Source: a virus
Length of the DNA: 30,143 nucleotides
IMG/VR virus record: IMGVR_UViG_3300021962_000443
Coordinates: 1-30,143 of that record
Reading direction: 5' to 3' (one strand)
Shown: one piece after another, positions 17,157-28,918 of the stretch
How the letters are laid out: every line of letters begins with the position of its first letter
Numbering within the stretch: position 1 is the stretch's first letter
Notes under the pieces: generated by a model
Databases searched by the model: none
Seen by the model: the letters and a program-made list of their open reading frames with translations, nothing else
What the model was told of the DNA's origin: nothing
Made by a program: the position numbers and the translations under genes

Positions 17157-17158
17157 TA

Positions 17159-17188
17159 TAGAGGGGAATGTAATTTCCCCTCTATTTT
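17159..17188 (+). terminator. Rho-independent terminator between gp19 and gp20
   Basis: TAGAGGGGAA at 17159-17168 pairs perfectly with TTCCCCTCTA at 17175-17184 across TGTAAT (10 bp stem), followed by TTTT. It should end much of the sheath-tube transcript and so limit readthrough into portal, which is needed in only 12 copies. Confidence 0.88.
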
Positions 17189-23106: not shown

Positions 23107-23132
23107 GTAGTATTTAAACTTTATAAGTTTAG

Positions 23133-23158
23133 GAAGGGCCGTAAGGCCCTTCTTTTTT
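23133..23158 (+). terminator. Rho-independent terminator after gp23
   Basis: GAAGGGCC at 23133-23140 pairs with GGCCCTTC at 23145-23152 across a GTAA loop, followed by six T residues. It ends the head-gene transcript. A small inverted repeat (AAACTT-TAT-AAGTTT, 23116-23130) precedes it. Confidence 0.95.
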
Positions 23159-24773: not shown

Positions 24774-24793
24774 TATATTATTTGGAGTATATT

Positions 24794-25252
24794 ATGGCTA
24801 ATGGTAATACAGACCTAAAACAAATATTAGAGACTTGGAAAGAAGATTGTCAGATCGATAGAATGCGATTGGATGAGGATTCTAGAAAAACACCTATACT
24901 ACATGCTAAGTATTTAGAACTACTATCTACTACTAAGCTCATGTTAAGAAAAGCTGAACAAGGTTATCAAGTATTATTAAAAGATAAATGGATGTACTAT
25001 AATGGTAAAATGGATCAAGATACTATTATATCTAAAGGATGGAAAGATGATCCGTTTGATGGTTTAAAAGTATTAAAAGGTGATATGGATAAGTTCTATG
25101 AAGCAGATGAAGATATACAAAAGGCTTCATTACAAATAGCTTATCTTAAAACTATTGAAGACACTCTTAAAGAGATTATAGATAATCTTAAATGGAGACA
25201 TCAAACTATTAAAAACATTATAGAATGGAAACGATTCGAGAGTGGCGGATAA
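24794..25252 (+). CDS. uvsY: Recombination mediator UvsY
   Basis: A 152-residue homologue of T4 UvsY (137 residues), which loads the UvsX recombinase onto gp32-coated single-stranded DNA. The KDKWMYYNGKM segment, corresponding to T4's ARLDYYSGRG, and the C-terminal helix WRHQTIKNIIEWKRFESG, corresponding to T4's FAIKHIQDMRAFEAG, are telling. An upstream in-frame TTG (24782) is possible, but ATG at 24794 has GGAG at 24784-24787 with 6-base spacing. It overlaps uvsW by 11 bases. UvsX is not in this window. Confidence 0.9.
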   Translation: MANGNTDLKQILETWKEDCQIDRMRLDEDSRKTPILHAKYLELLSTTKLMLRKAEQGYQVLLKDKWMYYNGKMDQDTIISKGWKDDPFDGLKVLKGDMDKFYEADEDIQKASLQIAYLKTIEDTLKEIIDNLKWRHQTIKNIIEWKRFESGG

Positions 25253-26723
25253 TATAACAGTAACATTGAAGCATCATTCAATGTTATATCTAGATTGTGA
25301 ACCTAGTATATCAGCAGAACTAGCTGATCATTTCTCTTTCTATGCACCGGGATATCAATTCCAACCATTGTATAAAAAGAGATTATGGGATGGTAAAATT
25401 AGATTATACAATCGTATGACTAATGAATTAAATACGGGGCTTTATGATAAACTTAAAGACTTCTGTATGAATCACAATTATACTATGACTCTTAATAATG
25501 GCCATTATGGTTTACCTAATGAAAAGGTTAATGTTAATCATTTAGAGTTAGTGCAGTATATAGAAAAATTATCACTGCCTTGGGAGATAAGAGATTATCA
25601 ATATGATGCAGTAGCTTATGGTATTCATCATAAAAGAGCTGTGTTACAATCACCTACTGGTTCAGGCAAATCATTAATCATTTATTGTTTATTACGTTGG
25701 TATCTAGATAATTATGAATCTAATGTATTAGTAGTAGTACCTACTACATCGCTAGTAGAACAAATGTATAATGACTTTGCATCTTATGGTATGGATGTAG
25801 AAAATGATTGTCATATCATTTATTCAGGTAAAGATAAACAAACTAAGAAACGTGTGATTATATCTACTTGGCAATCTATTTACAAATTATCTAAAGAATG
25901 GTTTGAACAATTTGGATGTGTATTTGGTGATGAGTGTCATGGCTTTAAAGCTAAATCTTTATCTGCTATTATGAATAAATGTACTGAAGCAGATTTTAGA
26001 TATTGTACCACAGGTACACTAGATGGTACGCAAGTCAATAGATTAGTATTAACAGGTTTATTTGGACCGGTGAGAAAAGTTATTACTACTAAAGATTTAC
26101 AAGAAAACAATACTCTAGCTAAATTAAATATTAATGTATTGTTATTAAATTATAATGATGAAGACAAAAAGAAATTCTGGTCTGATAAAAAAACTTATCA
26201 TGATGAATTAGATTTTATAGTCACACACGATGTGCGCAATCGTTTTATTAGTAATTTAGCTGTTAGTTGTAAAGGTAATACTCTAGTATTATTTCAATTA
26301 GTACAGAAGCATGGTAAGGTATTATTTGATCTTATAGATAATAAAGTATCAGAAAAAAGAAAGGTATTTTACGTATCAGGAGAAACAGAAACCACAGATA
26401 GAGAAGCTATTCGTGGTATTGTAGAAAAACAAAAAGATGCTATTATTGTAGCTTCTATGGGAACATTTAGTACAGGTATTAATATTAAGAATCTTCATAA
26501 CATTATATTCGCTTCACCTAGTAAATCTCAGATACGAGTATTACAATCTATTGGTAGAGGATTAAGGATGTCAGACGACGGTCGACCCACCACACTCTAT
26601 GATCTAGCAGATGATATACATATTGGTAAGCAGAAGAATTTTACACTTGGACATTCGGCTGATAGAATTAAAATATATAATAAAGAACAATTTGATCATA
26701 AGATCATTCCGGTAAACATATGA
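25242..26723 (+). CDS. uvsW: UvsW helicase (recombination/branch migration)
   Basis: A 493-residue superfamily 2 helicase closely matching T4 UvsW, which reverses forks, drives branch migration and unwinds R-loops to shift T4 from origin- to recombination-dependent replication. N-terminal DNA-binding domain: YLDCEPSISAELADHFSFYAPGYQF (about 16-40). Motor: Walker A SPTGSGKS at 137-144, DECH at 230-233, and late motifs VASMGTFSTGIN and LQSIGRGLRM. The GTG start at 25242 lies within uvsY; an ATG occurs 13 codons later but would cut into the conserved N-terminus. Transcription is from the sigma70-like promoter before uvsY. It shares 4 bases (ATGA) with the next gene. Confidence 0.96.
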   Translation: MADNITVTLKHHSMLYLDCEPSISAELADHFSFYAPGYQFQPLYKKRLWDGKIRLYNRMTNELNTGLYDKLKDFCMNHNYTMTLNNGHYGLPNEKVNVNHLELVQYIEKLSLPWEIRDYQYDAVAYGIHHKRAVLQSPTGSGKSLIIYCLLRWYLDNYESNVLVVVPTTSLVEQMYNDFASYGMDVENDCHIIYSGKDKQTKKRVIISTWQSIYKLSKEWFEQFGCVFGDECHGFKAKSLSAIMNKCTEADFRYCTTGTLDGTQVNRLVLTGLFGPVRKVITTKDLQENNTLAKLNINVLLLNYNDEDKKKFWSDKKTYHDELDFIVTHDVRNRFISNLAVSCKGNTLVLFQLVQKHGKVLFDLIDNKVSEKRKVFYVSGETETTDREAIRGIVEKQKDAIIVASMGTFSTGINIKNLHNIIFASPSKSQIRVLQSIGRGLRMSDDGRPTTLYDLADDIHIGKQKNFTLGHSADRIKIYNKEQFDHKIIPVNI

Positions 26724-27094
26724 ACACATCTATTAGACATTTTAAATTAACATCAGGCGATGAAATTATCACTGAAGTTATAGATAGACCGCGAGGTGGT
26801 ATTATGTGTCGTAAGCCTATGATGATTACGCAAAGACCTTTTAGACAAATATATATGTTACAACCTTATATGGCATCGATAGCTAATGCTGCAGAATTAG
26901 TATTGATACAATCTCATGCTGTGGTAGCTAGTTGTAAACCTTCAGAAGATTTAATAGCGGAGTATCATAATTTCGTACAGTATTATGAAAATTTAAAACA
27001 TATGCCTGTGCCAGACGCTAAAGATATAGTAAACGATATGTTAAAAAGATTACAGGAAGATGATTCAGTCCCACCACTGACTAGGTTTCATTAA
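26720..27094 (+). CDS. Small protein, possibly Sm-like fold
   Basis: A 124-residue protein with no certain family. IRHFKLTSGDEIITEVIDRPRGGIMCRKPMMI resembles the first strands of Sm/LSm-like barrels (a L-x-SGDEIIxEV strand pair), and proteins of this kind occur next to gp55 in marine T4-like phages. The C-terminal half is a predicted helix (AEYHNFVQYYENLKHM) and a charged tail. It is coupled to uvsW by ATGA. A leftward consensus promoter 36 bases beyond its stop would produce antisense RNA against it. Confidence 0.45.
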   Translation: MNTSIRHFKLTSGDEIITEVIDRPRGGIMCRKPMMITQRPFRQIYMLQPYMASIANAAELVLIQSHAVVASCKPSEDLIAEYHNFVQYYENLKHMPVPDAKDIVNDMLKRLQEDDSVPPLTRFH

Positions 27095-27095
27095 A

Positions 27096-27107
27096 GAATA
27101 TATATTC
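27096..27107. repeat. Perfect 12-base palindrome
   Basis: GAATATATATTC, immediately after the stop at 27092-27094. It is near the predicted start (about 27123) of a leftward transcript and could be a protein site, but AT-rich palindromes also arise by chance. Confidence 0.3.
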
Positions 27108-27129
27108 TCCCTCCCCGCATCTTAAAGAT

Positions 27130-27157
27130 ATTATAACGGATTTTAAAAAAATGTCAA
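27130..27157 (-). promoter_or_regulatory. Leftward perfect-consensus sigma70 promoter
   Basis: On the minus strand: TTGACA at 27157-27152, a 16-base spacer, TATAAT at 27135-27130. Both boxes are perfect. Transcription from about 27123 would run antisense to the 124-residue gene and uvsW; no minus-strand gene of useful length follows. Its GCTTGACA is an inverted copy of the one in the rightward gp55 promoter. Confidence 0.65.
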
Positions 27158-27182
27158 GCCGTAAACAAAAATAAATTTTAGC

Positions 27183-27211
27183 TTGACATTACAAACAAAA
27201 TAAACTATAAT
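27183..27211 (+). promoter_or_regulatory. Perfect-consensus sigma70 promoter for gp55
   Basis: TTGACA at 27183-27188, 17-base spacer, TATAAT at 27206-27211: an exact consensus bacterial promoter. Predicted start about 27218, just before AGGAA at 27219-27223 and the gp55 ATG at 27232. Host polymerase should thus make the late sigma factor before late transcription begins. Confidence 0.9.
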
Positions 27212-27231
27212 AACTAATAGGAATTTATATT

Positions 27232-27828
27232 ATGGCCCGAAAACAAAACGAACATTATGTGAACAATAAAGATTTTTCTTTAGCAGTAGTTGAGTATTGC
27301 CAAGCTGTACAAGATGCTAAAGATAAGAAGCTTCCTAAACCTATTGTGACTGATTATATTGCTCAATGCTTTCTTAAGATATCAGAAGGTGTATCACATA
27401 AGTCTAACTTCGTAAGATATACTTATAGAGAAGAAATGGTCATGGATGGCGTCGAAAATTGTTTACGAGCTATAGAAAATTATAATATTGATACAGCTAC
27501 ACGTACAGGTAATCCTAATGCCTTTGCTTACTTTACACAAATCATTTGGTATGCCTTTCTAAGAAGAATTGCCAAAGAGAAAAGACAGCAAGATGTTAGA
27601 TTAAGATTTATTGCACAATCTGGATTCGAAGAATTTTTAACTACTGGTGAACATGACGAATCAGGTGACCAAGTAAGAGCTTTAGTAGATGATCTATACG
27701 ATAAAATAAATAAAGTAAGAACTATGGATGAAGCTATTAAGGAATTTGGTAAACAAGAAAAGACCGAAAAGGTTATTAAAAGCTCTGACTCAGATCTATC
27801 TATATTTTTTGAACAGGACGAACTTTAA
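27232..27828 (+). CDS. gp55: Late-transcription sigma factor gp55
   Basis: A 198-residue homologue of T4 gp55 (185 residues), the sigma-family subunit that directs host RNA polymerase to TATAAATA. Conserved: the HYVNNKDFSLAVVEY opening, ISEGVSHKSNFVRYTYREEMVMDGVENCLRAIENYN (sigma region 2-like, core-binding and -10 recognition), and the C-terminal SDLSIFFEQDEL. The last resembles T4's terminal hydrophobic/acidic motif that binds the sliding clamp gp45, so replication-coupled activation is probably retained. The many TATAAATA sites in this window are its expected targets. The stop is directly followed by the gp47 start. Confidence 0.94.
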   Translation: MARKQNEHYVNNKDFSLAVVEYCQAVQDAKDKKLPKPIVTDYIAQCFLKISEGVSHKSNFVRYTYREEMVMDGVENCLRAIENYNIDTATRTGNPNAFAYFTQIIWYAFLRRIAKEKRQQDVRLRFIAQSGFEEFLTTGEHDESGDQVRALVDDLYDKINKVRTMDEAIKEFGKQEKTEKVIKSSDSDLSIFFEQDEL

Positions 27829-28893
27829 TTGAAATTTGCTATTCTAAACGATACACATGCGTGTATACGTAACGCTTCAGATATCTTTATGAATTATCAA
27901 GAACGCTTCTATACAGAAGTCTTCTTTCCTTATCTATTAGAAAACGATATTAAACATATTGTACATTTAGGTGATTACTTTGATAATAGAAAGTTTGTTA
28001 ATATCAAAGCACTCAATCATCATAGATATGTCTTTCTTAAGAAGCTGCGCGACTATGGTATTACGATGGATTTGATTCCTGGTAATCATGATGTCTATTA
28101 TAAGAATACTAATGAAGTTAATTCCATTAAAGAATTACTAGGCCATTACATGAATGAGATTAATATCATTATGGAACCACGAGTCATGGATTACGATGGT
28201 ATGAAAATGGCTTTGATACCTTGGATTAATGAAACTAACGAACCTGAGGTATTAGAATTTATTAAGAATTGTAAAGCTGATATAGTAGGAGCTCATTTGG
28301 AGTTACAAGGCTTCGAAGTGTATAAAGGTATTAATTGCCCACATGGTATGGATGGTAATATCTTCTCTAAATTTGAAAGAGTATTATCAGGTCACTTCCA
28401 TACTAAGTCAGAGCAAGGTAATATTACTTACCTAGGTTCACAAATGGAATTCTTTTGGAATGATGCCGGTGATGCTAAATACTTTCATATCTTTGATACC
28501 AATACTCGTGAACTAACTCCAGTGCGTAATCCTATTACTTTATTTGAAAAATTATATTATGATGATACTTCTGATACTGATTATGAGACTTGCGATTTAG
28601 ATTTTCTAAATGAAAAGTTTGTAAAAGTCATAGTGGTTAATAAATCTGATCCTTATATGTTCGAAAGATTTATTGATCGTATTAATAATAGAAAGATATT
28701 AGAATTAAAGATTGCAGAAAACTTTTCTGAGTTTATGGGAGAGAACGTGCAAGATGAATCTATTGACTTAGAGGATACTGAGACACTGCTAGATACTTAC
28801 ATTGATGCAGTAGAAACTGAATTAGATAAAACTAGAATTAAAACAGAAGTGCGAGATCTGATGCATGAAGCTCAAGCACTATCTTTTGTTTGA
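27829..28893 (+). CDS. gp47: Recombination endonuclease subunit gp47 (Mre11-like)
   Basis: A 354-residue homologue of T4 gp47 (339 residues), the nuclease half of the gp46-gp47 complex that resects DNA ends for recombination-dependent replication. Calcineurin-like phosphoesterase motifs in order: NDTH (Asp8, His10), HLGDYFDNR, PGNHDVYY, GAHLEL and GHFHTKSEQG, all metal-binding residues present. The start is TTG, set right against the gp55 stop, with AGGA at 27815-27818 upstream; the motif-I distance from the terminus supports it. The stop TGA forms part of the -35 box for gp46. Confidence 0.96.
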   Translation: MKFAILNDTHACIRNASDIFMNYQERFYTEVFFPYLLENDIKHIVHLGDYFDNRKFVNIKALNHHRYVFLKKLRDYGITMDLIPGNHDVYYKNTNEVNSIKELLGHYMNEINIIMEPRVMDYDGMKMALIPWINETNEPEVLEFIKNCKADIVGAHLELQGFEVYKGINCPHGMDGNIFSKFERVLSGHFHTKSEQGNITYLGSQMEFFWNDAGDAKYFHIFDTNTRELTPVRNPITLFEKLYYDDTSDTDYETCDLDFLNEKFVKVIVVNKSDPYMFERFIDRINNRKILELKIAENFSEFMGENVQDESIDLEDTETLLDTYIDAVETELDKTRIKTEVRDLMHEAQALSFV

Positions 28894-28918
28894 CATTTAT
28901 TAAAAAATAAGCTATAAT
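28890..28918 (+). promoter_or_regulatory. Perfect-consensus sigma70 promoter for gp46
   Basis: TTGACA at 28890-28895 (sharing the gp47 TGA stop at 28891-28893), 17-base spacer, TATAAT at 28913-28918. The predicted transcription start, about 28925, falls on or next to the GTG start of gp46. Confidence 0.88.

Follow-up and report, generated by a model that had tools for sequence, protein, structure and literature searches.

A conserved leftward promoter that reads no gene, back to back with the gp55 promoter of marine T4-like phages, and its possible role as a replication origin

Upstream of gp55, the late sigma factor gene of marine T4-like phages, lies a leftward promoter that is conserved in about 170 dereplicated phage loci despite reading no gene. 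Judged from its sequence, the element is a cis-acting transcription-start site, in which an early/middle-type leftward promoter is combined with a fixed G-rich initially transcribed sequence; it stands back to back with the gp55 promoter and is probably helically phased with it. We have very little doubt that the element is real and selected. Its most likely job, which we propose tentatively, is that of a transcription-primed (R-loop) replication origin like T4 oriE or oriF.

The window, which is the whole stretch of 30,143 nucleotides that was analysed, is part of the genome of a marine T4-like phage, with nearly all of its genes pointing rightward, in the order structural genes, uvsY, uvsW, a 124-amino-acid gene (phrog_527), gp55, gp47 and gp46. 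The 137-bp gap 5' of gp55 contains both exact sigma70-type promoters, arranged as follows.

24782–25252, plus strand: uvsY recombination mediator (phrog_231)
25242–26723, plus strand: uvsW helicase (phrog_16, E 2.5e-102)
26720–27094, plus strand: 124-amino-acid gene (phrog_527), antisense to the leftward promoter
27105–27116, minus strand: G-rich run GGGGAGGGAGAA, start of the predicted leftward transcript
27119–27129, minus strand: short inverted repeat ATCTT-T-AAGAT, between the leftward -10 box and the predicted RNA start
27130–27157, minus strand: leftward sigma70-type promoter (TTGACA 27157–27152, 16-nt spacer, TATAAT 27135–27130)
27152–27159 and 27181–27188: exact inverted segments, TGTCAAGC and GCTTGACA respectively
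27158–27182, no strand: AT-rich gap of 25 bp separating both -35 boxes
27183–27211, plus strand: rightward sigma70-type promoter of gp55 (TTGACA 27183–27188, 17-nt spacer, TATAAT 27206–27211)
27232–27828, plus strand: gp55, late sigma factor (phrog_234, E 5.9e-51)

The original prediction of two exact TTGACA/TATAAT promoters, pointing apart and with spacers of 17 and 16 bases, was verified in the sequence, as was the exact match of the two inverted segments; the flanking genes uvsW, phrog_527 and gp55 are placed as it had described. Two features had been missed: the minus-strand G-rich run GGGGAGGG (27116–27109), about 7–14 nt into a leftward RNA predicted to start near 27123, and the ATCTT-T-AAGAT repeat directly after the leftward -10 box. 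Three sites of the form TTGACA-N15..19-TATAAT are present in the 30,143 bases; dinucleotide shuffles average 0.10 and never contain as many as three. The third one, an exact TTGACA-17-TATAAT promoter at 28890–28918 (plus strand), overlaps the end of gp47, upstream of gp46. Strong rightward hairpins resembling intrinsic terminators are found at 23131–23154 (plus strand), following the gene for the major head protein, and at 17158–17185 (plus strand), between a pair of structural genes.

Relatives carrying the window's gp55 and gp47 were recruited as 157 contigs and dereplicated to 79 marine loci; the order uvsY-uvsW-(phrog_527)-gp55-gp47-gp46 is kept in nearly all recruited contigs of sufficient length. 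When the region 5' of gp55 was scanned for promoters on both strands, a strict promoter was found rightward in 53 of the 79 loci, leftward in 53 and in both directions in 38, against 1.0, 1.2 and 0.05 in dinucleotide shuffles. The minus-strand boxes, whose conservation in relatives had been put forward as a check, are thus conserved, with TTGACA/TATAAT-like hexamers 16–18 bp apart beyond chance, as in sigma70-type promoters. The composite element (the leftward promoter plus a G-rich run at fixed distance) is present in the uvsW-gp55 interval of 65 of the 79 marine loci, with a chance expectation of 0.9 derived from the remainder of the loci. Its cyanophage form occurs in 104 of 107 dereplicated loci and is more regular than the gp55 promoter itself. 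Phages with a leftward promoter at the site include C48C1, DSL-LC03, S-RSM4, Syn9, S-SCSM1, ACG-2014f, S-RIM8, P-HM2 and one single-cell virus. In most cyanophage references the promoter reads TTGACA-17-TAGAAT, with AACTCTGTCA(A)GGGTTCAAG or a similar sequence after it; P-HM2 has TACACT as its -10 box and satisfies only the looser rule, that of the 107-locus cyanophage scan.

The element is also nearly unique in its direction. The scan of the same marine loci revealed no leftward promoter 5' of gp47, gp46, uvsY or the 124-amino-acid gene, and one in 53 loci 5' of uvsW. Ten complete genomes contain 5–23 strict TTGACA-N16..18-TA[GCT]A[AC]T sites rightward versus 0–2 leftward, and the gp55 site is among the leftward ones in eight of them; in the other two, C48C1 and ACG-2014f, one -35 base is changed. 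Outside the gp55 site, the hexamers typical of each lineage point rightward and leftward in ratios of 24:1 (TGTACA group), 19:0 (TTTACA group) and 24:0 (TTGACA group). By these counts, hardly any promoter other than the leftward element points against the genome. It appears to belong to the marine group having the uvsW-phrog_527-gp55 order, since in Tequatrovirus slur07 and Vibrio phage D490 other genes stand 5' of gp55. A literature search, with most subscription papers outside its reach, found no prior report of the element.

The neighbouring genes vary while the element stays. In seven loci (L001, L002, L017, L110, L113, L139 and L146), extra genes have been inserted between the 124-amino-acid gene and the element, and in eleven others the element lies 414–891 bp from gp55 with an intervening gene, often a cytidylyltransferase-like ORF whose start lies on the leftward promoter's -35 box. 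Examples of the latter are found at 2224–2664 in L092, 2412–2846 in L101, 5941–6399 in L128 and 6798–7223 in L136; in several loci this gene starts with ATGTCAAG, and no strong rightward promoter partner was found there. The gene at the place of the 124-amino-acid gene is annotated as 'methylamine utilization' or 'Sm-like' in cyanophages. INDEPENDENCE from its neighbours, the element thus persists with insertions on either side; silencing of one fixed neighbour, be it uvsW or the 124-amino-acid gene, is therefore not what is conserved, which argues for a function that resides in the element itself.

The start of the predicted leftward transcript is the other conserved part. A G-rich, purine-rich run of the GGGGAGGG type is located 12–26 nt past the -10 box, or about 6–20 nt into the predicted RNA. 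At least five G in nine bases are present within 60 nt in 63 of 68 promoter-selected loci, with the run in the 12–26 nt slot in most, and conservation tails off about 35 nt after the transcript start. The cyanophages have a weaker G-rich form (AGGGTTCAAG) together with an inverted repeat whose centre lies close to the expected start. The stem of this repeat has a z of 5.8 versus shuffles and is absent from two control stretches; 5.26 of its 6 pairs form, and exchanging arms between phages lowers this to 4.89 (highest value 5.04 in 2000 exchanges, counting related phages as independent). The marine non-cyanophage set has no significant inverted repeat at this place (z 0.7). In cyanophage loci L238–L396, a TAGCT...TAGCTTTT pattern recurs at leftward positions +25 to +45, at the end of the phrog_527 gene, and could be a weak terminator for an RNA of about 40 nt.

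The leftward transcript would be an RNA without a gene, as had been predicted: the longest nearby leftward ORF has 8 codons, and no conserved leftward ORF was found downstream of the promoter in the window or its relatives. A small leftward gene using the G-rich run as its ribosome-binding site was considered and rejected, there being no ORF and the start codon being lost when the neighbour gene changes. In many loci phrog_527 ends in His-stop (27089–27094 in the window), so that, on the opposite strand, CAT or CAC plus the stop looks like a start codon; no ORF follows it. A known RNA family was likewise rejected, as a covariance-model search of 26000–28000 of the window with Rfam 15 gave two matches only, both elsewhere and far below the gathering score. 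Neither is there a structured RNA along the whole transcript, only the short start-site inverted repeat of the cyanophages.

For phage T4, origins have been described as promoters whose transcripts form R-loops, with oriF at uvsY, oriE using an early promoter and the UvsW helicase unwinding origin R-loops late (PMC3016281). Transposing this to the marine phages, host RNA polymerase would initiate leftward and the G-rich RNA would remain hybridised to its template as an R-loop, helped by negative supercoiling behind the two diverging polymerases; G-rich transcripts and negative superhelicity are both known to favour R-loops (PMC6442632). The RNA 3' end could then prime leftward leading-strand synthesis, and the product of the neighbouring uvsW gene might shut the origin off late by unwinding the R-loops, as in T4.

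Hybrid energies are in line with such a start. Using nearest-neighbour energies from published tables, the RNA:DNA hybrid at the window's G-rich run comes out at -7.0 kcal/mol against duplex DNA (15 steps). In 80% of the marine elements, the initially transcribed DNA ranks, by the stability of RNA:DNA relative to DNA:DNA, within the most favourable 1% of the leftward strand, with a median at the 0.3 percentile and -5.5 kcal/mol; the corresponding values are -2.5 for gp55 promoters, -1.9 for other rightward ones and -0.9 kcal/mol for the background. This result is partly circular in the marine set, for which G-rich runs were required for selection. The cyanophages, which were not selected for G, have a modest median at the 9th percentile. 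Base composition was also considered. In rightward genes, the synonymous-site (4-fold) skew changes from low to high 2–8 kb left of the element in five of ten genomes and elsewhere in the other five, and the averaged cumulative GC3 of seven genomes has its minimum in the bin adjoining the element; no raw GC-skew flip was seen at the locus. The direction of the skew fits bidirectional replication from the element, but the border of late and early genes there could cause the switch.

The origin reading is favoured by conservation without a gene, a promoter of the class that the lineage uses elsewhere, near-unique direction, independence from neighbours, lack of an ORF, the G-rich run at fixed spacing, hybrid energy, skew and the T4 precedent. 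The element is like T4 oriF (ori(uvsY)), oriG (ori(34)) and oriE in being promoter-driven, by an early/middle-mode promoter with a proposed noncoding function, and like oriF in standing near uvsY and uvsW, with UvsW encoded next door. It differs from oriF and oriG, in which a MotA middle promoter is joined to an A+T-rich unwinding element, by its sigma70-type promoter and its G-rich start. This counts against an origin, since what oriF and oriG need is the A+T-rich element and no run of G at the start; within the transcript the first 20 nt are rich in G, and the DNA around them has the AT-rich composition of the window overall (34% GC). It also counts against it that uvsY has its own promoter, which in position is the match of T4 oriF. 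The mitochondrial light-strand promoter and its CSB II primer element, where a promoter is followed by a G-rich run in the RNA, are resembled by the phage element, which differs from them in distance, length and context; an RNA:DNA quadruplex and premature termination belong to the mitochondrial side.

Alternatively, the leftward promoter may make a regulatory RNA, either a short orphan RNA with a functional purine-rich 5' end or a long antisense RNA that covers the genes to the left, whichever they are (late and recombination genes), and keeps them down early. The strong promoter and the conserved 5' end of the predicted RNA are in favour of this; from most loci, the RNA would be antisense to the 124-amino-acid gene and uvsW. 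A long antisense RNA is possible because the window has no good leftward intrinsic terminator nearby. There is a precedent for antisense transcription in a T4-like cyanophage, the RNA CfrI at psbA of S-PM2 (PMC2984593); unlike the predicted transcript from the gp55 element, CfrI is an RNA of about 225 nt detected by experiment, at a psbA/homing endonuclease locus and with no tie to gp55. A cis-antisense RNA calls for a constant gene on the opposite strand; the gene there varies, and the antisense control of the recombination operon suggested in the original prediction loses ground for this reason and through the early fading of conservation. The lack of an Rfam match also speaks against a regulatory RNA, and no leftward RNA at the locus is named in the searched passages of two RNA-seq papers (PMC5931967 and PMC5082946). 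On balance, we regard it as unlikely, yet worth keeping in mind.

A further explanation is that the leftward promoter acts on the gp55 promoter, with polymerases on the same helix face helping or excluding each other and so timing the late sigma factor; the coupling might go through supercoiling, through shared upstream contacts or through a roadblock versus read-through from the late genes. The distances between the outer -10 edges cluster near 41, 51, 61–63, 71–73, 82, 92, 102 and 113 bp, and the 82 bp of the window are a rung of this 10.3-bp ladder. R is 0.63 for the marine set (n = 48), 0.69 for 116 loci, 0.67 for the 77 values left after collapsing equal-distance clades and 0.62 (Rayleigh p about 2e-7) for the 40 collapsed values of at least 66 bp, in which the boxes cannot share bases. 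A group at 64–65 bp falls off the ladder, and independent sister contrasts support phasing weakly (p 0.04), so that helical phasing of the two promoters is likely but not proven. Many cyanophage pairs overlap, with 41 or 51 bp between their outer -10 edges, which predicts mutually exclusive binding.

The -35 boxes also covary. By lineage they are TTGACA, TTTACA, TGTACA or TTTACT, both arms tending to change together, and they are identical in 27 of 48 pairs versus 9.7 by permutation (maximum 21 in 10,000, counting related loci as independent). Both arms co-change because they are the ordinary promoter -35 of the lineage; rightward promoters of L002, L006, L016, L023, L078 and other loci have TGTACA, TTTACA or TTTACT, often with an extended TGn-TATAAT -10 box. 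Such whole-lineage variants suggest a lineage-specific activator or sigma specificity. The leftward promoter is not a MotA middle promoter, its TTGACA-type -35 being common to the other promoters of the lineage; cyanophages are without motA (PMC2984593). The suggestion that a protein binds a fixed site formed by the GCTTGACA inverted repeat did not survive: the gap between the -35 boxes ranges from 3 to 57 bp, which rules out a fixed palindromic operator, and the boxes change sequence together. The kept feature seems to be the relative helical face of the promoters, rather than a palindrome.

Against an action on the gp55 promoter stand the weak sister contrasts and the eleven loci in which the leftward promoter is intact 414–891 bp from gp55, mostly without a strong rightward partner; it would also leave the conserved G-rich transcript start unexplained, and we consider it improbable as the main function. 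The pair resembles ordinary divergent sigma70 promoters in its hexamers, its 16–18 bp spacing and its back-to-back arrangement, but both sides of those normally serve genes, whereas the leftward side here has no gene to serve and is almost the only promoter facing that way. Finally, a chance or mutational by-product, that is, a fortuitous promoter-like sequence on the other strand of AT-rich intergenic DNA, where sigma70-like sites are frequent (84 loose sites versus 65 expected), can be dismissed as far as sequence conservation allows, given that position, hexamers, spacing and downstream run are conserved in about 170 dereplicated loci and that no such leftward sites exist 5' of gp47, gp46, uvsY and the 124-amino-acid gene.

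Returning to the replication origin, a bolder version, which we think rather doubtful as a whole, is that this one dedicated, near-unique backward promoter of marine T4-like phages, with a G-rich primer RNA as its sole product, would be a single R-loop origin, helically phase-coupled to the late sigma promoter; for Syn9, a single theta origin has been predicted (PMC2984593). If this were true, replication start and the late-gene switch would be controlled from one site. Phasing of divergent promoters over seven turns would, if confirmed, be an unusual constraint, pointing to polymerase contact or a shared factor. T4-like cyanophages and related phages count among the ocean's most abundant viruses, and their replication start has, as far as we found, only been predicted. 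As the site is conserved in nearly every genome and can be found by a simple pattern, the origin would be directly testable in cultured phages.
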